DNA from: Rivularia sp. T60_A2020_040
GTDB taxonomy: Bacteria > Cyanobacteriota > Cyanobacteriia > Cyanobacteriales > Nostocaceae
Assembly (NCBI GenBank): GCA_015272215.1
Contig: JACYMD010000059.1
Span: 1-64,000 of the forward strand
DNA length: 64,000 nt
Direction of reading: 5' to 3'
The notes under the pieces are model-generated. The model was not told the DNA's origin and did no database searches. It was given only the letters and a program-made list of their open reading frames with translations. Below are positions 48,295-64,000 of the stretch, in pieces. The position numbers and the translations under genes are program-made. The first letter of the stretch is position 1; each line of letters starts with the position of its first letter.

Positions 48295-51200
48295 ATGAAG
48301 GATGCTAACTGTAATAGCTTATGGACATTTTCTCTAAAAGTATTACTAGGATTTTTGAGTGTCAGCGTCACATCAATAGAACCGGGTTTTGCTCAAAGCA
48401 ATATTGTACCGGATAACACTTTAGGTATTGAATCATCACAAATTAATAATAATAATGTAAATAGAAATGGTATCCCCAGCACCTTGATAGAAGGTGGAGC
48501 AGAGCGGGGTCAAAATTTATTTCATAGTTTGCAAGAATTCAACGTCGGGGAAGGAAGAGGAGCTTATTTTGTTGTTCCTAATGATAATATTCAAAACGTT
48601 TTAACCAGAGTAACGGGAAATAATCCTTCAGAAATATTAGGAATTTTGGGTACGATATCGAATAGAAATTTTGACCCTAGTAATGCAAATTTATTCTTAA
48701 TTAATCCCAACGGAATTGTTTTTGGTGAAAATGCCAGTTTAGATATCAATGGTTCCTTTGTGGGGACTACTGCCAATGGAATTCAGTTTGGTGAACAAGG
48801 ATTTTTTAGTGCAAATAATCCCGAAACCACACCTTTATTAACCGTTAATCCTTCGGCTTTTTTATTCAGTCAAATTAAGCAAACAGCATCGATTCAAAGT
48901 GCAAGTGTTGTACCCGCAGGTGAAAATCTATCAGGAAATAGTTTGAGAGGTTTACGGGTAGGGGATAGAAAAAGTTTGTTGTTGTTAGGGGGGAACCTCA
49001 GTATTGATGGTGGTGGAGAAGAAGGAGGAGTATCTGCTATTGGTGGGAGGGTTGAGTTAGGAGGGTTAGCAAGTTTGGGAACAGTTGGGTTGAATACAGA
49101 CGGAAATAATCTCAGCCTAAGTTTTCCCGATGGTGTAGCTAGAAGTGATGTGGCCTTAAGTAATAGCGCAAAGGTAGTTGTACCTGCTGACGATGGTGGA
49201 AGTATTGCAATTAGCTCCCGCAATTTTGAGTTGATAGAAGGAAGCAGCTTACTTGCTGGGATAGCTCCTGGTTTGGGTTTCGCTGAGAGTCAAGCGGGAA
49301 ATATTCAAATTAATGCCACTGGAATAGTAGTCATTGATGGAATCTCGAACGGTTTTCTCAGTGGTGCATTCAACCAAGTGGAAGCTGGTTCTACAGGTAA
49401 CTCCGGTCAAATTGAGATTAGCGCCGATAGCGTTGAAGTAAAAAATGGCGGTCAACTTAATGCCGGTACTTTAGGCAAAGGAAATTCTGGTAGAATCCAA
49501 ATCAATGCTACAGATAGAGTCGTCTTTAATGGCGCTCCCTTTGGATTCCGAAGTTCTGCATTTAGCCAAGTGGCACAGAACGCTGTGGGTAATTCGGGAG
49601 GAATTGAAATCAACGCAGGTAATAATGTTGACGTGAGTAATGGCGCTTTTTTGGATGCCAGTACACTAGGAAGAGGGGATGCGGGCAAAATCCAAATTAC
49701 TACTGATGGTAACGTGGTGTTTGATGGAGAATCTGCTTTGGGATTCCAAAGTTCTGCAATTAGCCAAGTGGCACAGAACGCTGTGGGTAATTCGGGAGGA
49801 ATTGAAATCAACGCAGGTAATAATGTTGACGTGAGTAATGGCGCTTTTTTGGATGCCAGTACACTAGGAAGAGGGGATGCGGGCAAAATCCAAATTACTA
49901 CTGATGGTAACGTGGTGTTTGATGGAGAATCTGCTTTGGGATTCCAAAGTTCTGCAATTAGCCAAGTGGCACAGAACGCTGTGGGTAATTCGGGAGGAAT
50001 TGAAATCAACGCAGGTAATAATGTTGACGTGAGTAATGGCGCTTTTTTGGATGCCAGTACACTAGGAAGAGGGGATGCGGGCAAAATCCAAATTACTACT
50101 GATGGTAAGGTAATGTTTGATGGAGAATCTCGCGGAGGCTTTTTAAGCTCTGCATTCAGCCAAGTTAAACCCGGAACTGTGGGCAATTCGGGCGGAATCG
50201 CCATTGAAGCGGGTAGCGTTGAGGTGAGTAATGGTGCTTTTCTGGATGCCAGTACCCTAGGAGAGGGAAATTCTGGAGCAATTCAGATTATTAGTCGCGA
50301 GGGTGTGGTTTTTAATGGGGAATCCAAGCAAGGAAACCGCAGTTCTGCAATTAGCCAAGTGGGGGAGAACGCTGTAGGCAATTCGGGAGGAATTGAAATC
50401 AACGCAGGTAATAATGTTGACGTGAGTAATGGCGCTTTTTTGGATGCCAGTACACTAGGAAGAGGGGATGCGGGCAAAATCCAAATTACTACTGATGGTA
50501 AGGTAATGTTTGATGGAGAATCTCGCGGAGGCTTTTTAAGCTCTGCATTCAGCCAAGTTAAACCCGGAACTGTGGGCAATTCGGGCGGAATCGCCATTGA
50601 AGCGGGTAGCGTTGAGGTGAGTAATGGTGCTTTTCTGGATGCCAGTACCCTAGGAGAGGGAAATTCTGGAGCAATTCAGATTATTAGTCGCGAGGGTGTG
50701 GTTTTTAATGGGGAATCCAAGCAAGGAAACCCCAGTTTTGTAATTAGTCAGTTAACAGCGGAGGCTATAGGTAATTCAGGCGGAATCGTCATTGAAGGGG
50801 GTAACGTTGAGATCAGCAATGGTGCTTTTCTAGATTCGAGTACCTTAGGAAAGGGAAATTCTGGAGCAATTCAAATTACTGGTCGTGAACGTGTAGTTTT
50901 TGATGGAGAATCCAAGTCAGGAAACCCCAGTTCTGCAATTAATCAGGTCACACAGAACGCTGTGGGTAGTTCGGGAGGAATTATGATTAATACCAGTATT
51001 TTTGAACTCACCAAAGGAGCTCAACTGACTAGTTCTACTCTTGGACTAGGAAATCCGGGCAGGATTCAAGTAAATGCCAGGAATCAGGTGGTCTTTGATG
51101 GCAAATCTAGAGACGGCTCCCGTAGTTCTGCTGCAACTAGCGAAGCGGGATCTTTTGCAGTTGGCGATTCGGAAGGGATAATACAAATCAACACTTCGAC

Positions 51201-52062
51201 TTTTAAGTTAACCGATACTGCTTTTATCAGCGCTAATACTTTAGGAGTGGTTAGTGCAGGTAATATTACAGTGAACTCATTAATCAACTTCGAGCTAACC
51301 GATGGTAGCAAAATATCTGCTCAAAGTACGGGAATCGGCGAAGCAGGTAATATCGAAATCAACTCACCGAAAATCACCCTAGATAACCAAGGTAGATTAA
51401 ATGCTGAATCTACATCTGGTAACGGTGGTAACATCAACCTGAACGTGGGTGAATTACTCCTGCTCCGTCGCGGTAGTCAAATCACCACCAATGCAGGTAC
51501 TGCTCAACAAGGTGGCAATGGTGGCAACATCACAATCAACGCCCCTAATGGCTTTATAGTTGGCTTTCCCAAAGAAAACAGCGATATTACCGCCAATGCT
51601 TTCACGGGTAATGGTGGTAATGTTGAAATTAATTCACGCGGTATCTTTGGTATCGAACGCCGCACAGAGCAAACTGCTCAAAGCGATATTACAGCCAGTT
51701 CGCAATTAGGGGTTGCGGGAAATGTTAATCTCAATGCTCCAGATAATAGCGATATCCAGAATAGCCTTACAGAATTACTAAAAAACCCAATTGATAGTGA
51801 AGCTTTAATTGCTAGTAGTTGCGTAGTCAGAAGTCGCGAAAGAAACGGCACTTTCTTTATTACTGGTAGTCAAGGTTTCCCCTATCGTCCCGGTGATGCA
51901 GTACCTTCTGTCTACTCTACCATTGGAGTGCAATCTGTACCAAATAGTATATCTGAAAAACCGCGTCGTCGCTGGAAAATCGGAGACCCCATTGTTGAAC
52001 CATCAGGAGTTTATCGTTTGGAAAATGGGCAACGTATACTTAGTCGGGAGTGTATGAAATGA
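48295..52062 (+). CDS. TpsA1: filamentous-haemagglutinin-type two-partner-secretion protein
   Basis: The 1255-residue protein has a signal peptide (about 10-31, FAQS) and a complete TPS domain: GGAERGQNLFHSLQEFNV, NPSEILGILG and NANLFLINPNGIVFGENASLD, whose NPNG motif is needed for TpsB recognition. The rest is beta-helical, made of short NSGGIEINA..VDVSNGAFLDAST units. Units of 66 residues repeat at 49571, 49769 and 49967 with identical DNA for long stretches, and a 131-residue two-unit block is duplicated after 49978. The last 90 residues, with SSCVVRSRE and ISEKPRRRW, recur in the TpsA2 gene. It should be a secreted fibre for adhesion or matrix. TpsB follows at 52276. Confidence 0.93.
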   Translation: MKDANCNSLWTFSLKVLLGFLSVSVTSIEPGFAQSNIVPDNTLGIESSQINNNNVNRNGIPSTLIEGGAERGQNLFHSLQEFNVGEGRGAYFVVPNDNIQNVLTRVTGNNPSEILGILGTISNRNFDPSNANLFLINPNGIVFGENASLDINGSFVGTTANGIQFGEQGFFSANNPETTPLLTVNPSAFLFSQIKQTASIQSASVVPAGENLSGNSLRGLRVGDRKSLLLLGGNLSIDGGGEEGGVSAIGGRVELGGLASLGTVGLNTDGNNLSLSFPDGVARSDVALSNSAKVVVPADDGGSIAISSRNFELIEGSSLLAGIAPGLGFAESQAGNIQINATGIVVIDGISNGFLSGAFNQVEAGSTGNSGQIEISADSVEVKNGGQLNAGTLGKGNSGRIQINATDRVVFNGAPFGFRSSAFSQVAQNAVGNSGGIEINAGNNVDVSNGAFLDASTLGRGDAGKIQITTDGNVVFDGESALGFQSSAISQVAQNAVGNSGGIEINAGNNVDVSNGAFLDASTLGRGDAGKIQITTDGNVVFDGESALGFQSSAISQVAQNAVGNSGGIEINAGNNVDVSNGAFLDASTLGRGDAGKIQITTDGKVMFDGESRGGFLSSAFSQVKPGTVGNSGGIAIEAGSVEVSNGAFLDASTLGEGNSGAIQIISREGVVFNGESKQGNRSSAISQVGENAVGNSGGIEINAGNNVDVSNGAFLDASTLGRGDAGKIQITTDGKVMFDGESRGGFLSSAFSQVKPGTVGNSGGIAIEAGSVEVSNGAFLDASTLGEGNSGAIQIISREGVVFNGESKQGNPSFVISQLTAEAIGNSGGIVIEGGNVEISNGAFLDSSTLGKGNSGAIQITGRERVVFDGESKSGNPSSAINQVTQNAVGSSGGIMINTSIFELTKGAQLTSSTLGLGNPGRIQVNARNQVVFDGKSRDGSRSSAATSEAGSFAVGDSEGIIQINTSTFKLTDTAFISANTLGVVSAGNITVNSLINFELTDGSKISAQSTGIGEAGNIEINSPKITLDNQGRLNAESTSGNGGNINLNVGELLLLRRGSQITTNAGTAQQGGNGGNITINAPNGFIVGFPKENSDITANAFTGNGGNVEINSRGIFGIERRTEQTAQSDITASSQLGVAGNVNLNAPDNSDIQNSLTELLKNPIDSEALIASSCVVRSRERNGTFFITGSQGFPYRPGDAVPSVYSTIGVQSVPNSISEKPRRRWKIGDPIVEPSGVYRLENGQRILSRECMK
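49571..50763 (+). repeat. Nested long tandem repeats inside tpsA1
   Basis: A 198-bp unit recurs with exact period (49571, 49769, 49967). From 49978 a 393-bp block of two non-identical units is followed by an almost identical copy starting at 50371. Identity includes third codon positions, so the copies are recent or homogenised. Expected effect is length variation of the protein's beta-helix by slippage or recombination. Confidence 0.9.
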
Positions 52063-52122
52063 TTAGATACAGCGGTTTTCACTTGAGTGGAATACAAATT
52101 TTACCAGAACCGCCGTACTGCT

Positions 52123-52148
52123 CCCCTCTCCAAGACATCGGAGAGGGG
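52123..52148. repeat. Dispersed hairpin CCCCTCTCC/GGAGAGGGG
   Basis: A perfect 9-bp GC-rich stem with an 8-nt loop lies 60 bp after the tpsA1 stop, followed by GATGGGGGTGAGGTT. This is a familiar dispersed repeat in filamentous cyanobacteria. It could weaken transcription from tpsA1 into tpsB, though no T-run follows. Confidence 0.65.
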
Positions 52149-52275
52149 ATGGGGGTGAGGTTGTATTGGAATCAACTGAAATCTGCTATAAATAGTCAAA
52201 CCTTCGTTATTTATCTAATTACCACTCGGTTATAAAACTATTCCCTATTCCCCATTCCCCATTCCCCCAAAAAAT

Positions 52276-54006
52276 ATGAAAATAATAAGATTATTGTTTT
52301 TCAGCATAATCATCGCCAGTTTCACACCATTCAAACAACTAGCTCGCGCTCAATCAACTCCTCCCGATGGAATCACAATTCCTCCAAATACACCCGAACG
52401 AATTGAACAAACTATCCCCAAACCGACGGAAACACCTCTACCCTCTAAACCAGAACCTTCTTTACCTCCTGCTTTACAAATACCTGCCACCGATACACCG
52501 ACAGCACCGACTACTCCCATTAACGAACGAATTAATGTTAAGAAACTTGAAGTTTTAGGTAATACTGTTCTCTTTGATGATATTAACGAACTGATTAAAA
52601 AATATGAAAAATGTTCTCAACAAACTTGCTCTGTCCCTTTTGAAGATTTAGTTCAACTACGCTCTACTATTACCCAACTTTATATTGATAACGGTTATAT
52701 TACATCCGGTGCATTTATTTTAAATAACCAACCCTTAGAAAGTGGGATTATAGAAATCCAAATAGTAGAAGGTGAATTAGAACGAATTGAAATCAACGGA
52801 CTTAATCAACTACAAACAAATTATGTCCGCAGTCGTCTTAGAATAGCAACCAAACGCCCCTTAAACCGTAAACGCTTAGAATCGGCATTGCAACTATTAC
52901 AACTTGATCCTTTATTACAACAAGTTAACGCCGAATTAATCGCAGGTAGTAGCCCCGGTAAAAACATTTTACAACTGCAATTAAAAGAAGCCCCTGCTTT
53001 TAACGCAGGTATTGTCATTGATAATAACCAATCTCCTACTATCGGTTCCCTGCAAGGTATAGTATTTGCTAGTTATAATAATCTATTAGGTTTTGGCGAC
53101 CAATTATCCGCTGAATACGGTTTGACAGACGGTCTAGATATATATGGTTTAGGTTATAGAATACCAATAAATGCCCGAGACGGTACATTTAATATCCGTT
53201 ACAGTAACAACAGTAGCCAGATAATTGAAGAGCAATTTGCTGACTTGGGTATTCGTAGCAATTCACAATCTTTATCATTTGGTTTCCGACAACCTTTAGT
53301 CAAAAAACCAGATACAGAATTTGCTCTTGGTTTATCTTTAGATCTACGTCGCTCTCAAACATTTTTGCTTGATGATGAACCCTTCTCCTTTTCAGAAGGA
53401 CCAGAAGATGGTAAATCTAAAGTTACAGCAATTCGCTTTTCTCAAGAGTGGCTACAACGAAATGCCAAACAAGTACTCGCAGCGCGATCGCAATTTAGTT
53501 TCGGTATTGATGCATTTGACGCTACCATCAACGAAAGTGGTATTGACGGACGATTTTTTATCTGGGTGGGACAATTTCAATGGGTACAGCAAATGTCACC
53601 CAAAAGCTTAATAGTAGCCAAAATCAACACTCAACTCACACCCGATGGTTTACTACCTTTAGAAAAAATTAGTTTAGGTGGAGTCGATACCGTGCGAGGA
53701 TATCGCCAAAACGAACTTGTGGCGGATAATGCCATTATTGGTTCAGTAGAATTACGTCTTCCCCTCACATCAGATAACTCGTTACAAATCAGACCTTTTT
53801 TTGATATCGGTACAGTTTGGAATAATAAAGCAGAAAATCTCTACCCACAGACAGTTGCGGGCTTAGGATTAGGTTTAACCTGGCAACCACGAACAGACTT
53901 ATTTTTACAATTAGATTACGGTATTCCCTTAATAGCAGTTAGAGAGCAAGGCGACTCATTACAAGAAAATGGTGTTTATTTTACGCTGCGTTATCAACCG
54001 TTTTGA
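52276..54006 (+). CDS. TpsB: ShlB/FhaC-type outer-membrane transporter
   Basis: The 576-residue protein has a signal peptide (about 1-26), a proline-rich linker (27-75), two POTRA domains (INVKKLEVLGNTVLFDDIN to about 240) and a C-terminal 16-stranded barrel of the haemolysin secretion/activation type. The barrel shows LGGVDTVRGYRQNELVADN, with the conserved VRGY segment of the loop 6 plug, and ends ENGVYFTLRYQPF with terminal Phe. It exports TpsA proteins across the outer membrane. It follows tpsA1 after 213 bp containing a dispersed hairpin. A C-rich TTCCCCATT repeat precedes its start. Confidence 0.95.
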   Translation: MKIIRLLFFSIIIASFTPFKQLARAQSTPPDGITIPPNTPERIEQTIPKPTETPLPSKPEPSLPPALQIPATDTPTAPTTPINERINVKKLEVLGNTVLFDDINELIKKYEKCSQQTCSVPFEDLVQLRSTITQLYIDNGYITSGAFILNNQPLESGIIEIQIVEGELERIEINGLNQLQTNYVRSRLRIATKRPLNRKRLESALQLLQLDPLLQQVNAELIAGSSPGKNILQLQLKEAPAFNAGIVIDNNQSPTIGSLQGIVFASYNNLLGFGDQLSAEYGLTDGLDIYGLGYRIPINARDGTFNIRYSNNSSQIIEEQFADLGIRSNSQSLSFGFRQPLVKKPDTEFALGLSLDLRRSQTFLLDDEPFSFSEGPEDGKSKVTAIRFSQEWLQRNAKQVLAARSQFSFGIDAFDATINESGIDGRFFIWVGQFQWVQQMSPKSLIVAKINTQLTPDGLLPLEKISLGGVDTVRGYRQNELVADNAIIGSVELRLPLTSDNSLQIRPFFDIGTVWNNKAENLYPQTVAGLGLGLTWQPRTDLFLQLDYGIPLIAVREQGDSLQENGVYFTLRYQPF

Positions 54007-54561
54007 TCATATAGGTAGGTCGGTACAGAAAATTATCATTGAGACAAGGCAGAGGTAAGAGGATATATTCATATCTTGCACCATCAAAACTCCTAACTCA
54101 AAATAATTACTGATTGTTTGACTTCATTCTTACCCGCCTGGGACTGCAAGTCCCAGTCTGATAGCAGAAGTCCATTAAAATGGACTAAAATATTATATTT
54201 TTATTTTAGTAATATTTTTATTTATATTTTTGATTATCTAGTTAATTATGCGTAGGGTGCAAGATGTGAGGTTACCCGCTCGCAAAGTCGAAGGGTAAGA
54301 GAGTTTCAGATTGATTTACATTTCTTTATATAGCGTTATTTTTTTTTGTGCCAGCTTACTTAACTGTTAACTGTTAACTGATTTTAGGCATTATAAAGCT
54401 TTCATAAAGATAGGGTAAAGCTACAGTATAAACACTGTTTTTGTGATTAACTCAAAGAGTTAAATAGCGAAAAGTTTTATTATTCAAAGTTGCCCAATCG
54501 GATTGGGCTTTAAAGAGTTTAGCTCAAAAATAAATTAAAAAGTAATCAAACAGGGAATTCT
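54007..54561. other. Long intergenic region with hairpin repeats and promoter of the PEP-CTERM gene
   Basis: The 555-bp gap has two palindromes, CTGGGACT-GCA-AGTCCCAG near 54137-54155 and AAGTCCATT-AAAATGGACT near 54168-54186, which together resemble a dispersed repeat of Nostocales. A short repeat AACTGTTAACTGTTAACTG lies near 54363. The last 150 bp before 54562 carry AT-rich promoter-like sequence. No gene is seen. Confidence 0.5.
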
Positions 54562-55410
54562 ATGAGTTTAAATTTAAAAAAAGTGGCAGTAGCAGCTGTG
54601 GTTTTGGTGAGTACATTAGGGTTCTCCGTAGAGTCTGCCAAGGCTCAGGTGGACTTGGGTTTATTAAATGAGTTTTTTGTGGTAGAGCATTCTGGTAATT
54701 CCGACTTTAAGGATGAGGATGAGGAACAACAGTTGCGGGCTTCATTTAATATTGTGACAGATAAATCTTTTGACGACGCTATTGAAGATTTTTCCTTAAC
54801 AAACTCAAGTAATGGTACGACGCTTTTCACATCTGCGATTGGGAGGATAGAACAACGAGAATTATTTAATGAAGAGAGTGAACTGCAAGGATTTTTGCAT
54901 AAGTTGGGTTTGAATGAGTTTAGAATTACCAGAGATGACGTATTTGCTAAAATTCCAAATGGAGAAGAACCTATTGTTGCTTATGTAGTGGATCTCACAA
55001 ACCATTTAAACCCGAACGAACAGGCAAAATTAGCGTTATTTTATGATGAGAACAATGCATCGCCGATGCAACCAGGTGGTTTGGAAGGTTTAGTTAGTTC
55101 TCCGCAAGGGGTTGTAAGATATGCGGGAACAGAAACAGTACCCGGAGTTTTAATTCGTGACTCTAGAGATGGTTTAGACAATCCCGATCAAGTTATAAAT
55201 GGACGTACAGTAGATTTATTTGGTGTAGGTGTTGAAGCAACAGCTAGCGTGCCTTTTTCAGTAAAGGTTAGAGAACTTAATCGAGGTGCAGTAACAGTAC
55301 CAGAACCTACTGGATATAATGGTTTGTTAATTGCAGGTGCTTTTGGTGGATTATTCATACTTCAGCGAAATCGACGTGTGAAAAAATTTCAAGGTAGCAT
55401 CGACAATTAA
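54562..55410 (+). CDS. PEP-CTERM sorting-domain protein
   Basis: The 282-residue protein has an N-terminal signal peptide (KKVAVAAVVLVSTLGFSVESAKAQ) and a C-terminal PEP-CTERM tripartite signal: VPEPTG, a hydrophobic helix (LLIAGAFGGLFIL) and a basic tail (QRNRRVKK). Such proteins are processed by exosortase and end up outside the cell, usually in biofilm matrix or sheath. The body is acidic and beta-rich without a known catalytic motif. Its position between tpsB and tpsA2 suggests a common cell-surface theme. Confidence 0.88.
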   Translation: MSLNLKKVAVAAVVLVSTLGFSVESAKAQVDLGLLNEFFVVEHSGNSDFKDEDEEQQLRASFNIVTDKSFDDAIEDFSLTNSSNGTTLFTSAIGRIEQRELFNEESELQGFLHKLGLNEFRITRDDVFAKIPNGEEPIVAYVVDLTNHLNPNEQAKLALFYDENNASPMQPGGLEGLVSSPQGVVRYAGTETVPGVLIRDSRDGLDNPDQVINGRTVDLFGVGVEATASVPFSVKVRELNRGAVTVPEPTGYNGLLIAGAFGGLFILQRNRRVKKFQGSIDN

Positions 55411-55497
55411 AAAATCGGATTTCGTTTTGTTGCAAGAGATTGGAAAATTTAGCGGAAAAGTTCTTTCCTCACTGGTTTAAGTTTCATTAATTTTGTT

Positions 55498-55554
55498 GGT
55501 TTGTAGTCAGGACTTTAGTTCTCAATATAAGAGTTAAAACTCTTACTACAAACC
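55498..55554. repeat. Dispersed palindromic element
   Basis: GGTTTGTAGT (55498-55507) pairs exactly with ACTACAAACC (55545-55554), and inner arms TTTAGTTCTC and GAGTTAAA continue the helix imperfectly. This 57-bp unit resembles a very common dispersed repeat of filamentous cyanobacteria. The rest of the 326-bp gap (55411-55736) holds only AT-rich sequence and the tpsA2 promoter region. Confidence 0.65.
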
Positions 55555-55736
55555 TTTAATAACTTTAATAACTAACATGGTGAGTACTAGACTTAACAAA
55601 GTTTAATAAACATCCAGCTTAATAACGATATATTCTGCTCTTATATCAAACTTGGATAAACAATAAAGATTCATAACTAATTCAGCGAATATGTTTATCG
55701 ATAATTTGTAATATAGAAAAAGTCTGAGGAGGTTCG

Positions 55737-58451
55737 ATGAAAACTTCTACTTTCCAGTTTGGGTTTGTTCGCGGGAGTATTGTATTATCCTTGATGCTTG
55801 CTTCAATTCCAGTTGGGGCAGAAATTATTCCCGATAATACTTTGCCAACCAATTCTGTTGTTACACCCCAAGGAAACCTTAGACTAATTCAAGAAGGTAC
55901 CCGGCATGGTGGGAACCTGTTCCACAGTTTTGAAGAGTTTTCGATTGAATCCGGTAATACTGCCCGTTTTGAACATGATTCAGTCATTGAGAACATTATT
56001 ACCCGGGTAAGGGGATCAGCTTCTAATATTGACGGTATTATTCAAACACTTATCAATGGAACTACAGATGATAAAGGTAATGCTAATCTTTTTATTATCA
56101 ATCCCAATGGTATCATCTTCGGACAAAATGCCAGTTTAGATATCGGTGGCTCATTTATTGGCAGTACGGCAGATAGCATTAAATTTGCTGATAGAACCGA
56201 ATTTAGCGTTACTAATGCTCAAAACTCAGCTTTGTTGACTGTCAGTGTTCCTCTAGGGCTTCAATTTGGTTCAAATCCGGGAGAAATTAAGAATAGCTCT
56301 CAGGTAAGTCCTAATGGTAAATCCAATCTTGCTGGTTCACCTTTTGGACTTCAAGTTCGAGCTACTAAAACTCTTGGATTGGTAGGAGGTAATGTTTCTC
56401 TAGAAGGAGGTAATTTAACAGCTACAGAAGGAAGAATTGAGTTAGGTAGTGTTGCGGGTAATAGCTTCGTCAGTCTCAATAAAATAGAAACTGGTTATAA
56501 ACTCGGATATACAGGTGTAAAAGACTTTGGAGATATTACCCTTCTTGACAAGGCTAGTCTTGGTGACAGTGGTGAAGGTGGTAATGCGATACAAGTACAG
56601 GGTAAGAATATAAATCTCACGGATTCATTCATTTTTTCTAATGCAAAAAACTCAACTTCAAGGAATAATGTAGAAATTAATGGCTCTGAATCGGTAAAAT
56701 TAAGTGAAAAATCGCAAATTCTATCCATTGTCGGAGGTGAAGCTAAAGCAGGAAATGTGATTGTGAAAACTCCATCTTTGGAATTAAATGGGGGCGCAAT
56801 AGTCGCAATATTGGCTCAAGGTAAAGGTGAAGCGGGAGATGTGAAAGTAGAAACTTCGTCTTTGGAATTAAGTGGAGGTGCAAAAATCCAAGCTTTGGCT
56901 GGAGGTGAAGCTAAAGCAGGAAATGTGGAAGTGACTTCAGATTCGATAAAACTCGATGGTAATGGTAACACTTCTCCTCTCACTGGTTTGATTACTCGGA
57001 CTAATAATAGTACAGGTAATGGTGGTAATATAAACATTGAAACTAGACAATTAAGTATTAAAGGTGGAGCCGTTATTGATGCCTCAACAAGTGGTACAGG
57101 TAATGCAGGTAATGTCTCAGTGGATGCGGATACTATAGAACTTGAGGGTACGGGTATAGATGCAAAGAGGAATTTGTTACCCAGTGGAATTGTTGCTCAA
57201 GTGGCAAGTGGAGCCGGGAATAGAGGTAATGCGGGAACTCTAAAAATTGAAACTAGACAACTTACTCTGCAATCAGGAGCGCAGATATCTAGTGCAGGGC
57301 GTAAAAATGGTAATGGAGGAAATGTAAATATCACAGCCTCAGATTTGATTACAATTACCGGGAGTTCACCCACCGCAACATTAGAAAGTGGTAGCAGTGG
57401 CATTTTTGCTACCGCTGAAGGTGAAGAAGCCACTGGCAACCCCGGACAATTAGATATTACTACCGGACTGCTAACGGTAGAAAATGGCGGTAAAATATCA
57501 GCAAATAATAGAAGTACTGGACAAAAACCAGGAAACTTAAGCTTGAATGTTGACAAGTTGGTCATCCGTAATGGAGGCTTAGTTCAAGCTGCCACTTTTA
57601 ATACAGGTCCTGGTGGTAATTTAACGGTTAATGCCAAGGATTCTGTAGAAGTTTGGGGTACTGGTATTCTTGGTGAGGATATTCCTGTTGTAAGCAACAT
57701 TACAGTGAGCAGCGAGGGTACTGGTACAGCAGGTAACTTAGAAATCACAGCCGATAGAATTGAATTAGAGAATCAAGGCAAACTCACAGGTGAAACCAAA
57801 GCCGATGCTGATGGCGGTAATATTACCTTGAATCTCAATGAATCATTGTTATTGCGTCGTCAAAGTCAAATTTCTACTTCTGCGGGTACAGAATCCACTC
57901 CCGGCAATGGTGGTAATATTGAAATTAATGCCCCTAATGGTTTTATCGTTGCCATACCCAAAGAAAACAGCGACATCACCGCTAATGCTTTTACAGGTAG
58001 GGGTGGTAATATTGAAATTAACTCACTCGGTATCTTTGGTATCGAACCCCGCACCCAGCAAACTGATCAAAGCGATATTACAGCCAGTTCCGAATTGGGT
58101 GTTCAAGGTTTAACGACTATTAATGCACCTGATAATAGCACTATTGAAAATAGCCTTATAGAACTACCAGAAAACCTCATCGATAGCGAAGCTTTAATTG
58201 CAAGTAGTTGCGTAGTCAGAAGTCGCGAAACAAACGGTACTTTCTTTATTACTGGTAGTCAAGGTTTCCCTTATAGTCCCGGTGATGCAGTACCTTCTAG
58301 CTATTCTACCATTGGAGTGCAATCTGTACCAAATAGTATATCTGAAAAACCGCGTCGTCGCTGGAAAATGGGAGACCCCATTGTTGAACCATCGGGGGTT
58401 TATCGTTTGACGAATGGGCGACGTATACTTAGTCGGGAGTGTGGGAAGTGA
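55737..58451 (+). CDS. TpsA2: second filamentous-haemagglutinin-type secreted protein
   Basis: The 904-residue paralogue has a signal peptide (about 12-29), a TPS domain (EGTRHGGNLFHSFEEFSI, NANLFIINPNGIIFGQNASLDIGGSF) and a beta-helix of GNAGNVxVxxxxIELxGTG-type units. It lacks the long identical tandem units of TpsA1. From about residue 700 it closely follows TpsA1, including PKENSDITANAFTGRGGN and the last 90 residues with SSCVVRSRE and KPRRRW. AGGAGG lies five bases before the ATG, and a strong terminator follows the gene. No own TpsB is adjacent, so it probably shares the TpsB at 52276. Confidence 0.93.
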   Translation: MKTSTFQFGFVRGSIVLSLMLASIPVGAEIIPDNTLPTNSVVTPQGNLRLIQEGTRHGGNLFHSFEEFSIESGNTARFEHDSVIENIITRVRGSASNIDGIIQTLINGTTDDKGNANLFIINPNGIIFGQNASLDIGGSFIGSTADSIKFADRTEFSVTNAQNSALLTVSVPLGLQFGSNPGEIKNSSQVSPNGKSNLAGSPFGLQVRATKTLGLVGGNVSLEGGNLTATEGRIELGSVAGNSFVSLNKIETGYKLGYTGVKDFGDITLLDKASLGDSGEGGNAIQVQGKNINLTDSFIFSNAKNSTSRNNVEINGSESVKLSEKSQILSIVGGEAKAGNVIVKTPSLELNGGAIVAILAQGKGEAGDVKVETSSLELSGGAKIQALAGGEAKAGNVEVTSDSIKLDGNGNTSPLTGLITRTNNSTGNGGNINIETRQLSIKGGAVIDASTSGTGNAGNVSVDADTIELEGTGIDAKRNLLPSGIVAQVASGAGNRGNAGTLKIETRQLTLQSGAQISSAGRKNGNGGNVNITASDLITITGSSPTATLESGSSGIFATAEGEEATGNPGQLDITTGLLTVENGGKISANNRSTGQKPGNLSLNVDKLVIRNGGLVQAATFNTGPGGNLTVNAKDSVEVWGTGILGEDIPVVSNITVSSEGTGTAGNLEITADRIELENQGKLTGETKADADGGNITLNLNESLLLRRQSQISTSAGTESTPGNGGNIEINAPNGFIVAIPKENSDITANAFTGRGGNIEINSLGIFGIEPRTQQTDQSDITASSELGVQGLTTINAPDNSTIENSLIELPENLIDSEALIASSCVVRSRETNGTFFITGSQGFPYSPGDAVPSSYSTIGVQSVPNSISEKPRRRWKMGDPIVEPSGVYRLTNGRRILSRECGK

Positions 58452-58882
58452 ATTGATCTTAAATTTGGAATTAGTAAAACGGTTTTGAATTGAGTGAAGT
58501 ACACAAATTTTATCTGTATTGAAATCAACCGAAAACCCCGATAATAACCGCACTTTTTAGCTGCGGTTATTTTTTAGCATTACCATACAGTTTTCTGTAA
58601 TCCGAACAGCAGAATTGTGTTTTTCCCGCTTCAATAAGATGTATTGAAGACACCATAAATTGTAGTTTATTCTGTTGAGTAAATATCTTATTCTTTTATT
58701 AAAGGGCAGGGGAAATGAAGAAAGACTTTTTTTCAAACCTCAGTCAAAGGTTAAAGGTTAAAGGTCGAAGGTTAAAGGTCATATTGATATTTTAAGGTTT
58801 TTTCTCAAGGAAAAATAACCAGTTAGTTTAATTTTAAATTCAATTTGTTTGCTTAAGGAACTAGTTTACTTTTAGAGGTAAA
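58452..58882. other. Intergenic region with terminator and heptamer-like repeats
   Basis: This 431-bp gap contains the tpsA2 terminator (58543-58575) and short AAAGGTT-type tandem repeats (AAAGGTTAAAGGTTAAAGG and related) at about 58745-58780. The remainder is AT-rich and includes the promoter region of the next gene. Confidence 0.6.
58543..58575 (+). terminator. Rho-independent terminator after tpsA2
   Basis: AATAACCGCA (58543-58552) pairs with TGCGGTTATT (58562-58571) around a 9-nt loop and is followed by TTTT. It is a strong intrinsic terminator separating the secretion locus from the redox cluster. Confidence 0.9.
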
Positions 58883-60523
58883 ATGCTGAGTAAAGTATCT
58901 GAAAAAACAATGCATACCATCAGATGGGTGCTAGTAATTGGATGGTTGCTGTTAATATTCTCTCTATTTTACGACCCCATCACCCATCATTTAACTAATC
59001 CCACTAACTTCTTATCTCCCTTCCGCGACTCACTTCCACAAGTTCTTGTACAAGGAAAGCCCTTAAAAGAAGAACCTTATCCCATTGGTGCAAGAGTATT
59101 TTGGGGAATGGTTGTACCCAGCGCCATCATGATTGTACTAGTTTGTGGACACGAAACTTGGCGGCGGATTTGTCCTTTATACTTTCTTTCTCAAATTCCT
59201 CGCGCTTTAGGACTAAAACCCAGATTGAATATCAATAAAAATACTTGGTTGACGCGCAACCATTTTTACCTTCAATTTACTTTATTATTTATCGGCTTAA
59301 ACTTCCGCATCCTGTTCATCAACTCAACACGTCTGGCTTTGGGATTGTTTTTATTGACTGCGATCGCAAGTGCAATTACGGTAGTATTTTTATACGGAGG
59401 TCGTAGTTGGTGTCATTATGTTTGTCCATTTAGCATTGTTCAAACTGTTTTTACTGGTCCGCGTAGTTTATTAGGAAGTAATGCGATATCTGCATCTCCC
59501 CAAAGTATAACTCAATCAATGTGTCGTACTGTAGATACAACTACAAACCAGGAAAAAAGCGCTTGTATCGGCTGTAAATCTGCTTGTATGGACATTGACG
59601 CAGAAAAATCTTACTGGAATGACTTACAAAAACCAGGACGCAGATTTGTACAGTACGGTTATTTAGGACTGGTAATCGGTTATTTCGTCTACTACAGATT
59701 ATACGCCGGCAACTTTGATTATTACTTCTCCGGTGCTTGGACACACGAAGAAAATCAATTATCAACACTTTGGAAACCAGGTTTTTACTTATTTAACGAG
59801 CCAATTAATATACCTAAAATCATTGCAGTTCCATTAACATTAGCTTTGACAGTTGCGATAAGTTACTGGAGTTTAAGTAAAATCGAAAAAGCTTACCGTG
59901 CTTATCTCAAAAAACACAATTCCCGGATAAATTCGCAACAAGTTTTACACAGGATGCTGACGATTTGCACCTTTATAGCTTTCAACAGTTTCTTTATTTA
60001 CGGTGGAAGACCAGAAATTTTAAGATTACCGATTCCAGTACAACTATTATTTAACACCTTGGTCGTAATAGTTAGTACCATGTGGTTAGTTCGGACTTGG
60101 GGACGTAGTTTTGAGCAGTATCAAAGAGATAGTAATCTTGATAGTTTCCGTCGTCAATTGTCTAAGTTATCGATTAATAATTCTCAATTCTTAAAAGGAC
60201 GTTCTCTCGATGAATTATCATCAAATGAATTGTTTATCCTAGCTTCGGTTTTACCAGAATATCGACAAACAGACCGATTAGAAATTTATAAATCAATTCT
60301 CTTAGAAGGATTAATACAAAAAAACTTCACTTCTTCCGACAGTTTAGAAATTTTACAGGAAATACGTCAGAAATTAGCCTTGAGTGAAAACGAACATTTC
60401 TCCATACTATCAGAAATCAGCAGCGAACAACCATTTCTAATTTATCCAAATCAGATGAATAATCCTGCTAATTTTAACTTTGAACCTGCACAAACCACAT
60501 TCTTAAAAACTCATCGTCGTTAA
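58883..60523 (+). CDS. Membrane 4Fe-4S protein, NapH/CcoG-like
   Basis: The 546-residue protein has membrane segments near 14-33, 70-90, 130-150 and 155-175, then more near 255-275, 315-335 and two around 355-400. Conserved cysteines lie in CPLYFLSQIPRALG, WCHYVCPFS and CIGCKSACMD, the paired-cysteine pattern of polyferredoxin-like membrane proteins such as NapH, NosR and CcoG. These pass electrons between quinol or soluble donors and partner enzymes. The C-terminal 130 residues are soluble and of unknown fold. The FHA-reductase gene starts 24 bp downstream, so the two are very likely one operon. Confidence 0.85.
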   Translation: MLSKVSEKTMHTIRWVLVIGWLLLIFSLFYDPITHHLTNPTNFLSPFRDSLPQVLVQGKPLKEEPYPIGARVFWGMVVPSAIMIVLVCGHETWRRICPLYFLSQIPRALGLKPRLNINKNTWLTRNHFYLQFTLLFIGLNFRILFINSTRLALGLFLLTAIASAITVVFLYGGRSWCHYVCPFSIVQTVFTGPRSLLGSNAISASPQSITQSMCRTVDTTTNQEKSACIGCKSACMDIDAEKSYWNDLQKPGRRFVQYGYLGLVIGYFVYYRLYAGNFDYYFSGAWTHEENQLSTLWKPGFYLFNEPINIPKIIAVPLTLALTVAISYWSLSKIEKAYRAYLKKHNSRINSQQVLHRMLTICTFIAFNSFFIYGGRPEILRLPIPVQLLFNTLVVIVSTMWLVRTWGRSFEQYQRDSNLDSFRRQLSKLSINNSQFLKGRSLDELSSNELFILASVLPEYRQTDRLEIYKSILLEGLIQKNFTSSDSLEILQEIRQKLALSENEHFSILSEISSEQPFLIYPNQMNNPANFNFEPAQTTFLKTHRR

Positions 60524-60547
60524 CTATTCACAAGGATTTAATTAATC

Positions 60548-62032
60548 ATGAAAATCACAGCATTTAATCCCAAAATCGGTTTCTTAGAAGAAAAAAAGCT
60601 TGTTGCTTCTACAGACAAACCTTCATTGTTTTTAATTGGTAGACATCCCAACAGCGATTTAGTTTTAAATACACCAGGAGTGAGTCGAGTACATGGTTTA
60701 ATTACTTCCTTTCAGCAAAATTATTACTTTGTCGAGCTTGCTAGTACTAGTGGTTCGCGGCTGAATAATCAAGAAGTGTTGGTTAATCAAAACTGCATTT
60801 TACAGCCTGGTGATAATCTCAGAATTGGTGATTTTTTCTTATTGTTTCTATCTGAAGAAGAACAAATAAAAAAACCAGAGCCTTATTGGTTTTTAAAACC
60901 TCAAACTACTGATAATTATCACCAGATAAATTCGGGTAAACAGGATGAATTAATAGTTAATTGTTCCCAAATAGTTCAAGAAACACATGATGTTAAAACC
61001 TTTTGTTTTATTACTTCTCCACCGACAATGTTTAATTATCAACCAGGTCAATTCGTAACATTAGAACTAGAAATTGATGGTAAATTAATCAAACGTCCTT
61101 ACTCAATTTCTTCTACTCCTTCACGTCCCCATAATTTAGAAATTACCGTTAAACGAGTTCCTGCTCCAAATGATATACCCGATGCTCCTCCTGGATTAGT
61201 TTCTAACTGGTTGCACGATAATTTTACTGTTGGTAATCAAATTAAAATTAGTCCTCCAACTGGTAATTTTACGATTCAAAATAACCCCAATCGTAAATTT
61301 ATATTTATCTCTGCGGGTAGCGGTATCACACCAATGATGTCAATGTCTCGATGGTTATGTGATACAACTCCAAATGCCGATATTGTCTTTATCCACAGCG
61401 CTAAAACTGTTAACGATATCGCTTTTTGTCACGAGTTAGAATTCATGGCTAACCGACATCCCAATTTTCAACTAGCTATTAATTTAACTGGTATGCAATA
61501 TAACCCAAATTGGTTGGGATATACTGGCAGATTGAACGAGACGATGATCAAGACGATTAGCCATGATTTTCAAGAACGTATTGTATATGTTTGTGGTCCC
61601 GATGGCTTTCGAGAAAACGTTAAAGCAATATTGAGGGAGTTAGAATTTCCCATGGAAAATTACTATGAAGAAAGTTTTGGTTCTTCTAAAAAGCAAAATA
61701 AACAGCAAAAACAACCTCAATTAGTAGTAGCTGATGATACTCCAACACATTTTTACTCTAAGTCTTATGCCCCAATTCCCCAAAAAAGCAATGTTGTAGC
61801 TTTTACTAAATCTCAAAAAGAAGTAGTTTGCGATGCTAAAGAAACTATTTTACAAGCTGCTCAAAAAGAAGGGATAACATTACCCTACGGTTGTCAAATG
61901 GGAGCTTGTGGTCAATGCAAGTTACGCAAACTTTCTGGAGATGTCTATTACGAAGAAGACTTTAATTGTGAAGAGGATTATGTTCTTACTTGTGTAGCTA
62001 AAGCTGATGGAAATGTAGTTATCGAAGGCTAA
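60548..62032 (+). CDS. FHA domain - flavin reductase - 2Fe-2S ferredoxin fusion
   Basis: Three modules in 494 residues. An FHA domain (about 20-105) has GRHPNSDLVLN, SRVHG and STSGSRLN, the phosphothreonine-binding loop positions. A ferredoxin-NAD(P)+-reductase-type module (about 130-380) has the FAD motif RPYSISSTPS, nucleotide motif SAGSGITPMM and YVCGPDGF. A plant-type 2Fe-2S domain (about 405-494) has YGCQMGACGQC and LTCVA, with all four cysteines. The flavin and iron-sulphur parts match Hcr- or oxygenase-reductase-like electron carriers. The N-terminal FHA domain is unusual and would let a Ser/Thr kinase signal or a phosphoprotein partner control location or activity. It follows the 4Fe-4S gene by 24 bp. 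Confidence 0.9.
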   Translation: MKITAFNPKIGFLEEKKLVASTDKPSLFLIGRHPNSDLVLNTPGVSRVHGLITSFQQNYYFVELASTSGSRLNNQEVLVNQNCILQPGDNLRIGDFFLLFLSEEEQIKKPEPYWFLKPQTTDNYHQINSGKQDELIVNCSQIVQETHDVKTFCFITSPPTMFNYQPGQFVTLELEIDGKLIKRPYSISSTPSRPHNLEITVKRVPAPNDIPDAPPGLVSNWLHDNFTVGNQIKISPPTGNFTIQNNPNRKFIFISAGSGITPMMSMSRWLCDTTPNADIVFIHSAKTVNDIAFCHELEFMANRHPNFQLAINLTGMQYNPNWLGYTGRLNETMIKTISHDFQERIVYVCGPDGFRENVKAILRELEFPMENYYEESFGSSKKQNKQQKQPQLVVADDTPTHFYSKSYAPIPQKSNVVAFTKSQKEVVCDAKETILQAAQKEGITLPYGCQMGACGQCKLRKLSGDVYYEEDFNCEEDYVLTCVAKADGNVVIEG

Positions 62033-62116
62033 TATATCATACTTGGACGCACCAAAAAAGCAACGCAAGATGACAATTTGACACTTGAATTTCCGATAAT
62101 TAATTAACTCAAAATC

Positions 62117-62152
62117 AACTCAATAATTAACTCAATAATTAACTCAATAATT
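62117..62152. repeat. Tandem 12-bp repeat upstream of haloperoxidase gene
   Basis: AACTCAATAATT occurs three times without gaps (62117-62152), flanked by partial copies (AACTCAAAATC at 62106, AACTCAAAA at 62153). It ends 11 bp before the next start codon and replaces the usual ribosome binding site region. Confidence 0.8.
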
Positions 62153-62163
62153 AACTCAAAAAA

Positions 62164-64000
62164 ATGCAAAACTCCAACTTATACAATCATACCAACTGCA
62201 CTCACGAATACAATGTGGAAAAACAACTTCCTAATCAAGTTGAACTTCAAATTGACCCAAATACTCAATTAGTAACCGTTGACAACGAAACTCCAACAGT
62301 TTCCGTAATGTGGGACAAAGCTGTTCAACAAGCTGTAATTAATACATCACCAGGTCCGACAGTTGCATCTCGTGCTTATGCAATGTTGCATACTGCTACA
62401 TACAACGCTTGGTCAGCATACGATCCCACAGCGATGTCAACTCAACTTGGTGATTATTTGCAGCGTCCCGATGCGGAAATTACTGACGCGAATAAATCGG
62501 AAGCAATGAGTTATGCTGCTTATCGAGTTTTAAACGACCTATTCCCCACCCAAACAGAGATTTTTGAGCAATTGATGGGTGAATTGGGCTTAGATACGAG
62601 CAATGATACTACCGATATTACCACGGCTGCTGGTATTGGTAATATAATGGCAGAGGAATTATTGGCATTTCGTCATCAAGATGGTTCTAACCAGTTAGCT
62701 GACAGCCCAAATGGAACTGATGGGGTTGCTTATTCAGATACCACTAATTATCAAGCCGTTAATGCTCCTGGTGATATTGTCGATATCGAACGTTGGACAC
62801 CAGAAACAGTACCAATTGATGCACAACCGGGGACAGAAGCATCTACTCAACAGTTTCTGACACCTCAATGGGGTAGTGTTACACCTTTTGCTTTAGAATC
62901 TGGTGAGCAATTCCGTCCAGAAGCACCAAAACCATTTTTGCTGGTAGATGGAGATGTAAATTTAAAAGAGAAAACAATTACCCTTGAAGATGGCTCTGTA
63001 TTAGATATCAATAAAAATCTGATTGGAGATGTAATTAACCCCGAATTTATCGCTCAAGTACAAGAAGTTATTGATATCAGCGCTAACCTTACCGACGAGC
63101 AAAAATTAGTTGCAGAGTTTTGGGAAATGGGTGGTGGAACTTCCTTTCCTCCCGGTACTTGGATGACTTTTGGACAATTCGCCTCGGCACGAGATCATAA
63201 TACCCTGGATCAAGATGCTCAATTATTCTTTGGTTTGGGTAACGCAGTGTTTGATGCAGGTATCGCTACTTGGGAAGCCAAAACCCACTATGATTATACT
63301 CGTCCAGTCAGAGCAATTCGGGAATTGGGGGAACTGGGATTAATCGGGGAATTCAATCAAGAACTCGGTGGGTTTGCAATTGACGCATGGAAACCAGGAG
63401 AAGGAACTCAGACAATATTAGCAACTGATTTCCTTACCTTTCAAACTCCTGGAGGAAATCCTTCACCACCTTTTGCTGAATATACCTCCGGACACAGTGG
63501 CTTTAGCGCTGCGGGTGCAGAGATATTACAATTGTTCACAGGTAGCGATGAATTTGGTGCTTCTGTAAGCTTTAACACGGGTGCATCTCGTTTTGAACCA
63601 GGTCAAACTCCTTCGCAACCAGTTACTTTAGAGTGGGATACCTTCAGTGAAGCTGCGGAAGAAGCTGGTATTTCTCGTCTCTACGGTGGAATTCATTTTA
63701 CTGATGGTGATGTTAACGGAGGAATATTGGGAAAACAGGTAGGACAAGCAGTATGGGATAAAACTCAATACTTTATCAACGGTGGATACGAAAGTATAAT
63801 TGACACCAATGAAGATTATATTCTGAATGGCGGAATATGGGATGATACTCTAAACATTGTAAATACAGAGTTTGATGAGAGTATTATTCCACTAAGTGGC
63901 TCTTCAAACGATTATTACCTTGGTGTTTCTCCACAAGAAACAAGTATATTTTTTAATGATGATGTCATCCCCGAATCCAGTACGATGGTTGTAGATATAC
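62164..64000 (+). CDS. Vanadium-dependent haloperoxidase family protein (3' end outside window)
   Basis: An open frame starts at ATG 62164 and is still open at 64000 (612 codons), so the gene is cut by the window edge. It has the conserved VHPO/PAP2 vanadate-binding pattern: K-x6-RP in KTHYDYTRP, SGH in YTSGHSGFS and R..GGIH in SRLYGGIHFTDGD. The N-terminal helical part (VASRAYAMLHTATYNAWSAYDP) is typical of bacterial family members. No signal peptide is visible; the final residues in view look like a start of a C-terminal beta-rich extension. Such enzymes oxidise halides with peroxide or act as phosphatases. It follows the reductase gene by 131 bp. Confidence 0.88.
   Translation, partial: MQNSNLYNHTNCTHEYNVEKQLPNQVELQIDPNTQLVTVDNETPTVSVMWDKAVQQAVINTSPGPTVASRAYAMLHTATYNAWSAYDPTAMSTQLGDYLQRPDAEITDANKSEAMSYAAYRVLNDLFPTQTEIFEQLMGELGLDTSNDTTDITTAAGIGNIMAEELLAFRHQDGSNQLADSPNGTDGVAYSDTTNYQAVNAPGDIVDIERWTPETVPIDAQPGTEASTQQFLTPQWGSVTPFALESGEQFRPEAPKPFLLVDGDVNLKEKTITLEDGSVLDINKNLIGDVINPEFIAQVQEVIDISANLTDEQKLVAEFWEMGGGTSFPPGTWMTFGQFASARDHNTLDQDAQLFFGLGNAVFDAGIATWEAKTHYDYTRPVRAIRELGELGLIGEFNQELGGFAIDAWKPGEGTQTILATDFLTFQTPGGNPSPPFAEYTSGHSGFSAAGAEILQLFTGSDEFGASVSFNTGASRFEPGQTPSQPVTLEWDTFSEAAEEAGISRLYGGIHFTDGDVNGGILGKQVGQAVWDKTQYFINGGYESIIDTNEDYILNGGIWDDTLNIVNTEFDESIIPLSGSSNDYYLGVSPQETSIFFNDDVIPESSTMVVDI

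Follow-up and report, generated by a model that had tools for sequence, protein, structure and literature searches.

Three plus-strand open reading frames (ORFs) close the window analysed here, which is the first 64,000 bases of a 67,204-base cyanobacterial contig (JACYMD010000059.1, Rivularia sp. T60_A2020_040): gene A for a membrane iron-sulfur (Fe-S) protein, gene B for a fusion of an FHA domain with an FNR-type reductase and a 2Fe-2S domain, and gene C for a protein of the vanadium-haloperoxidase (VHPO) family (Table 1). The locus raises the question of what a phosphothreonine reader does on an electron carrier, and whether the carrier, its membrane neighbor and the haloperoxidase form one system. 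A preliminary description of this DNA had placed the three genes on the same strand with gaps of 24 bp (A-B) and 131 bp (B-C), with which the ORF calls agree, and had suggested a kinase-regulated electron path for oxidant chemistry. On the comparative evidence gathered here, the A-B pair is the core of the system and the haloperoxidase a clade-specific partner, because many pairs, such as those in which the Fe-S protein carries FHA and cyclic-nucleotide-binding (cNMP) tails, occur without a haloperoxidase. It is tentatively proposed, as a real possibility, that the pair is a phospho-regulated path carrying electrons from NAD(P)H to the membrane for extracytoplasmic peroxide chemistry, probably the supply of hydrogen peroxide (H2O2) to the haloperoxidase.

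Architecture of the reductase and its membrane partner

Four Pfam domains were recognized in gene B, all above their curated cut-offs and in the order FHA, FAD_binding_6 (residues 143-242), NAD_binding_1 (253-358) and Fer2, with the FHA domain scoring 48.7 bits against a cut-off of 20.7. The residues that we take to be key to an FHA domain as a phosphothreonine reader (GR, SxxH and N) are kept in 40 to 47 of 47 fusion proteins (G31 in 47, R32 in 44, S46 in 45, R47 in 41, H49 in 46 and N73 in 40), and each of the four Fer2 cysteines is kept in 45 of the 47. The fusion architecture read from the sequence in the preliminary description was thus borne out, and the combination of FAD_binding_6, NAD_binding_1 and a four-cysteine Fer2 domain is that of an FNR-type NAD(P)H reductase with a 2Fe-2S center. 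A marginal NAD_binding_6 match was also recorded (23.5 versus 22.2 bits), and no Pfam hit to a ferric-reductase-type heme membrane domain was obtained in gene A or gene B up to E 0.1.

The sole Pfam hit above cut-off in gene A was Fer4_5 (25.1 versus 22 bits), and its product has about eight membrane helices. Across 97 family members, C97, C177, C181, C214, C231, C235, H90 and H356 show no variation, and 99% of the members retain C228. A single CX3CP motif is present (C177-C181); at the other site just C97-P98 is present, with a tryptophan in place of the first cysteine in all 97 aligned members. Gene A had been called NapH/CcoG-like; its description as a membrane Fe-S protein with a Fer4_5 domain holds, whereas the likeness to those proteins is, by profile score, a distant one, far below both cut-offs (17.6 bits, E 0.0015, against 316.7 for the CcoG model; 12.9 bits against 213.05 for the NapH model). 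No close curated model was found among Pfam and curated NCBIfam-type profiles, and by these comparisons the gene A proteins are a family of their own.

A second AlphaFold2 model of the gene A protein (predicted local distance difference test, pLDDT, 84.1; predicted template modeling score, pTM, 0.82) was good as a whole and weak at about residues 200-240, the site of four of the conserved cysteines. Helix positions and loop charges in the family suggest that the conserved cysteines and the C-terminal tails lie on the cytoplasmic side. Such tails comprise, for example, an FHA and a cNMP-binding domain above cut-off in the relative at locus L041 (with a sub-threshold HEAT match) and a cNMP-binding domain alone in that at L044. 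cNMP-tailed Fe-S proteins were also seen at loci whose fetched stretch lacks an FNR gene (L081, L082, L131, L137, L143 and L144 among others), and on cyanobacterial plasmids as well; these could represent a cAMP-regulated branch of the family.

Conservation of the pair

Within the order to which the window belongs, 157 of 388 genomes gave a match to gene A, and across the phylum 49 of 373 did. From among the matches listed for the order, 80 neighborhoods were fetched, the best-scoring first and the remainder spread, a sample in which the clade of the window is over-represented and several contigs end near the Fe-S gene; ORFs and domains were called with our own models, built from few sequences. 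Matches to gene B (E 1e-30) occurred in 16 of 386 genomes spread over the phylum; on our assessment of the hits, 13 of them have FHA plus FNR (two without Fer2) and the other three matched in the reductase part alone.

An FNR gene was present at 47 of the 99 loci with gene A, which sustains the earlier view of a membrane Fe-S partner for the fusion. In 41 of these 47 pairs, FHA, FNR and Fer2 lie in a single frame; the parts are in separate frames in L095, L108 and L112, and no FHA domain was detected in L037 and in the rhizobial L078 and L079. All 41 single-frame fusions are on the same strand as gene A, at a median spacing of 105 bp (range -68 to 2091), and in 36 of them gene B lies downstream at no more than 400 bp. 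The genome search for fusions lacking these neighbors, suggested in the preliminary description, gave a divided answer: 41 of 47 single-frame FHA-FNR genes stand beside gene A, whereas at six loci (L035, L036, L038, L040, L046 and L047) gene A was undetected in the fetched stretch, and many pairs lack a haloperoxidase. Moreover, an unbiased clustering of neighbors returned as the most widespread after gene A the fusion itself, a cluster in which protein kinases and CHASE2 proteins are mixed, and another that combines haloperoxidases with RTX-repeat proteins.

Outside cyanobacteria, the loci of Rhizobium etli (L078) and Agrobacterium fabrum (L079) hold an Fe-S protein and an FNR-Fer2 gene on plasmids. 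The three rhizobial loci form a branch of their own, and in two of them these genes stand beside a divergent CCP_MauG-type peroxidase gene. As further observations on L078 and L079, the FNR-Fer2 protein is annotated "hybrid-cluster NAD(P)-dependent oxidoreductase", the cytochrome c peroxidase (CCP) gene is followed by genes for an ATP-binding protein and a response regulator, the plasmids are typed conjugative, and the Fe-S protein of L079 has an FHA domain. DUF928 proteins also recur near the pair (L041, L045, L126 and L009), directly upstream of the FHA- and cNMP-tailed Fe-S protein in the first three.

Recurrent linkage to haloperoxidases

Gene C was assigned to the VHPO family by DUF6851 and VCPO_2nd domains above cut-off (VCPO_2nd 64.4 versus 27 bits), by its match to solved vanadium haloperoxidases (E 2.5e-53) and by the retention of K-x6-R, SGH and R-x5-H, which we take as the motif rule for the vanadate site, in agreement with the preliminary description. 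No NCBIfam hit was obtained for the part of the gene contained in the window; its end lies 38 bases beyond, at 64038. The protein end, DNLNSDSFQF, resembles that of the L101 partner, HSTDNFTFL, and, more speculatively, this tail may be a type I secretion signal.

A maximum-likelihood tree (quick mode) was built from 97 of the 99 Fe-S genes, the partial L037 and L138 being left out, and the window fell within a clade of 39 loci (Shimodaira-Hasegawa-like approximate likelihood-ratio test, SH-aLRT, 100). A haloperoxidase gene was present in the fetched neighborhood of 22 of these 39 loci, confirming a repeated linkage to enzymes of unrelated kinds. Eleven partners are of the DUF6851 type (L004, L007, L008, L034, L085, L089, L096, L097, L099, L101 and L105), three of other vanadium types (L009, L100 and L110), five of the red-algal type (L010, L088, L090, L091 and L095) and three are animal-type heme peroxidases with RTX repeats (L084, L113 and L115). 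Within these, L004, L007 and L008 are close kin, as are L034, L096, L097 and L099, and the haloperoxidase gene of L034 is split over two frames. The red-algal type was confirmed for L010 against solved bromoperoxidases (E 5e-116), and the other four cluster with it, two of them giving no hit when scanned with Pfam. The haloperoxidases of L100 (CARDB as the only Pfam domain, none of haloperoxidase type) and L009 (VCPO_2nd below cut-off) were assigned by our own models and conserved motifs.

The partners lie mostly upstream of gene A, and downstream of gene B in the close kin of the window and in genus g54. Nineteen of the 22 are on the strand of gene A, and 13 adjoin gene A or B with no intervening ORF of at least 70 aa; in L085, one 99-aa ORF lies between. 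Signs of export were also found, namely the RTX repeats and, in the genus g54 partner, what we take to be a Sec-like N-terminus and a PEP-CTERM-like tail.

Outside the clade, a haloperoxidase was found at one of 55 cyanobacterial loci (L140, a weak match on the opposite strand), a difference with Fisher P 6e-10, uncorrected for descent among related and hence non-independent loci. Pairs with the FHA- and cNMP-tailed gene A had none, apart from that weak L140 match. L120 and L123, both outside the clade, each have a CCP gene on the other strand at a distance of 4 kb, which was excluded from the count. On the tree, the presence or absence of a haloperoxidase switches 11 times, with the rhizobial loci coded as present and L140 as absent. 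By count of those listed, a genome of about 7 Mb holds two to three haloperoxidase genes (VHPO, 39 genes in 41 genomes), and a hand estimate from genome-wide counts gives about 0.2 haloperoxidase neighbors expected by chance in 39 loci. That the three genes are chance neighbors with nothing in common is scarcely credible, being contradicted by their recurrence in several genera.

Linkage to serine/threonine kinases

A Ser/Thr kinase gene was present in the fetched stretch of 15 of the 47 pair loci, for which a background of at least 6.8 kinases per Mb in 22 genomes, slightly low as a figure, gives a chance of 7.4% per locus and P 9e-7, uncorrected for descent, with L106, L107 and L108 being close kin. 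For example, in L083 just 2 bp separate the end of a Pkinase-WD40 gene from the start of gene A, a receptor-type kinase gene (Pkinase plus Peripla_BP_6) starts 31 bp (L088) and 26 bp (L091) after gene B, and L041 and L045 have CHASE2-kinases at distances of 3.8 and 6 kb. The kinase connection suggested earlier is supported by the linkage at these 15 loci; in the window itself, no Ser/Thr kinase gene lies beside the three-gene set. Receptor kinases, in which a Ser/Thr kinase is fused to a periplasmic ligand-binding-type domain (Peripla_BP_6), were seen near the pair in L088, L091, L094 and L111, and beside gene A alone in L116.

Proposed mechanism and alternative explanations

The reading favored here is that genes A and B encode a two-protein electron relay. 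A kinase would phosphorylate a threonine, perhaps on a partner protein or on the gene A product, and the FHA domain would dock the reductase on the phosphothreonine. Electrons would pass from NAD(P)H through FAD and the 2Fe-2S center to the 4Fe-4S center or centers of gene A at the inner face of the membrane, and then to an acceptor at or across it. This control of docking and this order of carriers may be put forward with fair confidence; with less confidence, O2 would accept the electrons and so yield superoxide or H2O2, the H2O2 serving the haloperoxidase; this is the weakest step of the scheme. The peroxide would feed an exported haloperoxidase, which would form hypohalous acid or halogenated compounds extracellularly, and the whole would operate in the manner of a NOX/DUOX enzyme and its peroxidase, though assembled from unrelated components and with an exchangeable haloperoxidase. 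The kinase-regulated electron path of the preliminary description is thus supported in part, in its architecture, its Fe-S partner and its kinase and haloperoxidase linkages, and amended in that the haloperoxidase is clade-specific and not part of the core.

Several observations weigh against this reading. Three haloperoxidases (L088, L091 and L095) are on the strand opposite to gene A, and another five (L009, L034, L096, L097 and L099) are separated from it by some 3-5 kb. At 17 of the 39 clade loci no haloperoxidase was found in the fetched stretch (some being short contigs), and tblastn recovered no remnant; neither gene A nor gene B was present in the 20 regions fetched around other haloperoxidases of these genomes, and therefore haloperoxidases can work without an Fe-S or FNR partner. 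The Fe-S family (49 of 373 genomes) extends beyond the pair (FHA plus FNR in 13 of 386, on our assessment), and therefore its basic job is not haloperoxidase-specific. In the window, no export signal was recognized in the haloperoxidase, and the VHPO family includes enzymes with other chemistry. The conserved cysteines of gene A are predicted to be cytoplasmic, neither an O2-reducing site nor heme is evident, and no solved structure or fold matching the gene A model was found. Moreover, linkage cannot distinguish the supply of an oxidant from its removal.

This last point leads to the main rival, self-protection, in which the relay would export reducing power to repair or quench damage that hypohalous acid or peroxide of the cell's own making does to the envelope, in the manner of MsrPQ or of a peroxide-reducing chain. 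An identical haloperoxidase linkage would be expected if the relay shields the producer, and two of the three rhizobial versions stand beside a di-heme cytochrome c peroxidase-type gene, a consumer of both electrons and peroxide. The cyanobacterial partners, however, use peroxide without external electrons, and no repair enzyme appeared among the recurrent neighbor clusters, several of which are unannotated and in which no dedicated search was made, and self-protection is considered rather unlikely. Unlikely as well is a general phospho- or cyclic-nucleotide-regulated membrane reductase (a quinone reductase or a redox balance valve) that lies near haloperoxidases through a shared stress response with no direct chemical coupling. 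The occurrence of both the Fe-S family and the fusion without haloperoxidases, and the cNMP- and FHA-tailed versions that point to general signaling, are in keeping with it, whereas haloperoxidases of unrelated folds, directly adjacent on the same strand at 13 loci and almost confined to one clade, argue for a more specific tie. Metal or cofactor maturation, in which gene A would act like CcoG, a cupric reductase, and, reduced by gene B, deliver a metal to the partner enzyme, draws on the weak CcoG likeness and the CX3CP motif; it is quite improbable, with gene A far below the CcoG cut-off and with partners that use vanadate, heme b or c-type heme and offer no common metal step.

The supply of H2O2 is preferred over repair or metal delivery because H2O2 is what the partner enzymes, unrelated as they are, all require, and the export signs of several partners fit a peroxide made at the membrane. 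In its fullest form, the proposal is a more doubtful one: a receptor-kinase-gated, FHA-docked NAD(P)H-FAD-2Fe-2S reductase might drive the membrane Fe-S family to make surface H2O2 for an exchangeable exported haloperoxidase, giving hypohalous acid on demand. It might, with the same degree of doubt, follow that such a NOX-free oxidase-peroxidase module is a bacterial weapon or defense with vanadium or animal-type heme enzymes as partner. Haloperoxidases need H2O2, and we know of no dedicated, regulated source of it for the bacterial ones; if the H2O2-supply reading is true, it would provide a testable, switchable source tied to unrelated haloperoxidases and a role for FHA domains attached to electron carriers in bacteria. 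The comparison also draws out the gene A proteins as a membrane Fe-S family, some of its members being fused to FHA and cyclic-nucleotide-binding tails.

Other features of the locus

The closest named relatives at the locus are Richelia sp. SL_2_1 (L007), with a fusion protein 94% identical, and Plectonema cf. radiosum LEGE 06105 (L008), at 92%. A 12-bp tandem repeat fills the end of the B-C gap; in the alignment it is 12 bases shorter than the window in Plectonema and 24 shorter in Richelia, and it could tune translation or expression of the haloperoxidase gene. A terminator-like scan gave no plus-strand site in the A-B or B-C gap, and one weak promoter-like match (9/12) spans the A-B gap, in scans where promoter-like and terminator-like sites were overall at chance level. 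Downstream of gene C, the nearest signaling genes code for a response regulator and for a CHASE2 protein that has an ATPase domain of the histidine-kinase type.

Upstream of gene A, a 7-bp tandem repeat (AAAGGTT, 4.9 copies) occupies 58746-58779. Genes for two filamentous-haemagglutinin-like exoproteins with internal repeats and for a ShlB/FhaC-type transporter (names given from sequence, with no domain scan) occupy 48295-58451, just upstream, and similar genes precede the module in L008. A second, shortened copy of gene B was found on contig C106 (positions 1-549, L005), with an FHA-only ORF of 137 aa in which the SRVH motif is altered to SLVH and whose DNA shares 89% identity with the beginning of gene B; the last part of contig C87 (L006) contains 70 bases that match the A-B junction. 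Together, these fragments look like a decayed duplicate.

Table 1. Features of the three-gene locus (positions in the window)
Feature	Position	Strand	Evidence or remarks
Membrane Fe-S protein, 546 aa (gene A)	58883..60523	+	ORF, Fer4_5, family conservation, AlphaFold2
Conserved-cysteine stretch	59171..59587	+	ICP (C97), WCxYxCP (C177, C181), SMCR (C214), CxxCxxxC (C228, C231, C235)
FHA-FNR-2Fe-2S fusion reductase, 494 aa (gene B)	60548..62032	+	ORF, Pfam, NCBIfam
FHA domain, aa 29-94	60632..60829	+	Pfam; GR31-32, S46-R47-x-H49, N73
FAD and NAD(P)H binding domains, aa 143-358	60974..61621	+	RPYS and GSGITP motifs
2Fe-2S domain, aa 422-486	61811..62005	+	Cys 449, 454, 457, 482
12-bp tandem repeat TAATTAACTCAA, five copies	62101..62159	+	ends 4 bp before haloperoxidase start
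Vanadium-haloperoxidase-family gene, 624 aa (gene C)	62164..64000 (window part)	+	ORF, Pfam, PDB match, motifs

Comparison with known systems

The preliminary description knew of no system with this gene set, and likewise no paper describing this module was found in the literature searched. The module appears new as a system composed of parts of known kinds, its coupling being proposed from comparative genomics. NapH, NosR and RdhC, according to an excerpt of PMC5928378, are polytopic proteins with two CX3CP motifs and Fe-S cysteines that are thought to pass electrons at the membrane. Gene A is likewise polytopic, with a CX3CP motif and Fe-S cysteines; its assignment to these proteins was rejected, since it has only one full CX3CP, gives no FMN domain hit and scores far below the NapH cut-off, and they also differ from the gene A relatives that bear C-terminal FHA and cNMP tails. 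CcoG (RdxA/FixG) is another membrane 4Fe-4S protein, and here too the assignment of gene A was rejected on its profile score.

The FNR-Fer2 reductases GbcB, Hcr and PaaE share the FAD-NAD-2Fe-2S order of gene B, with a strong profile match, whereas gene B differs by its N-terminal FHA domain and by having a membrane Fe-S protein as partner rather than an oxygenase or Hcp. Its identification as GbcB, the glycine betaine monooxygenase reductase, was rejected, the score of 336.8 bits (E 1.3e-100) being below the equivalog cut-off of 500. The haloperoxidase partners resemble known vanadium enzymes (Streptomyces NapH1/NapH3 type, Corallina type and Curvularia) in catalytic motifs and family domains, and differ in their linkage to a reductase pair, which was not found in the literature searched. 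Vanadium haloperoxidases use H2O2, as stated in an excerpt of PMC8407465.

The closest parallel in operation is with the NOX/DUOX enzymes and their heme peroxidases, of which Nox2-MPO and DUOX-TPO/LPO are oxidase-heme peroxidase pairs (PMC6411640). Common to both, on the proposed reading, are the entry of electrons through NAD(P)H and FAD, a membrane electron carrier and an H2O2-using haloperoxidase partner, and one partner class of the bacterial module is even an animal-type heme peroxidase. Membership in NOX itself was rejected, no ferric-reductase membrane domain having been found in gene A or B; in its place the module has Fe-S centers, an FHA input, vanadium partners and an operon-like linkage. 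The analogy suggests that the linkage of relay and haloperoxidase is a bacterial counterpart of the oxidase-peroxidase pairs of animal immunity, and, if H2O2 supply proves to be its role, the module would be a convergent counterpart of that animal partnership.

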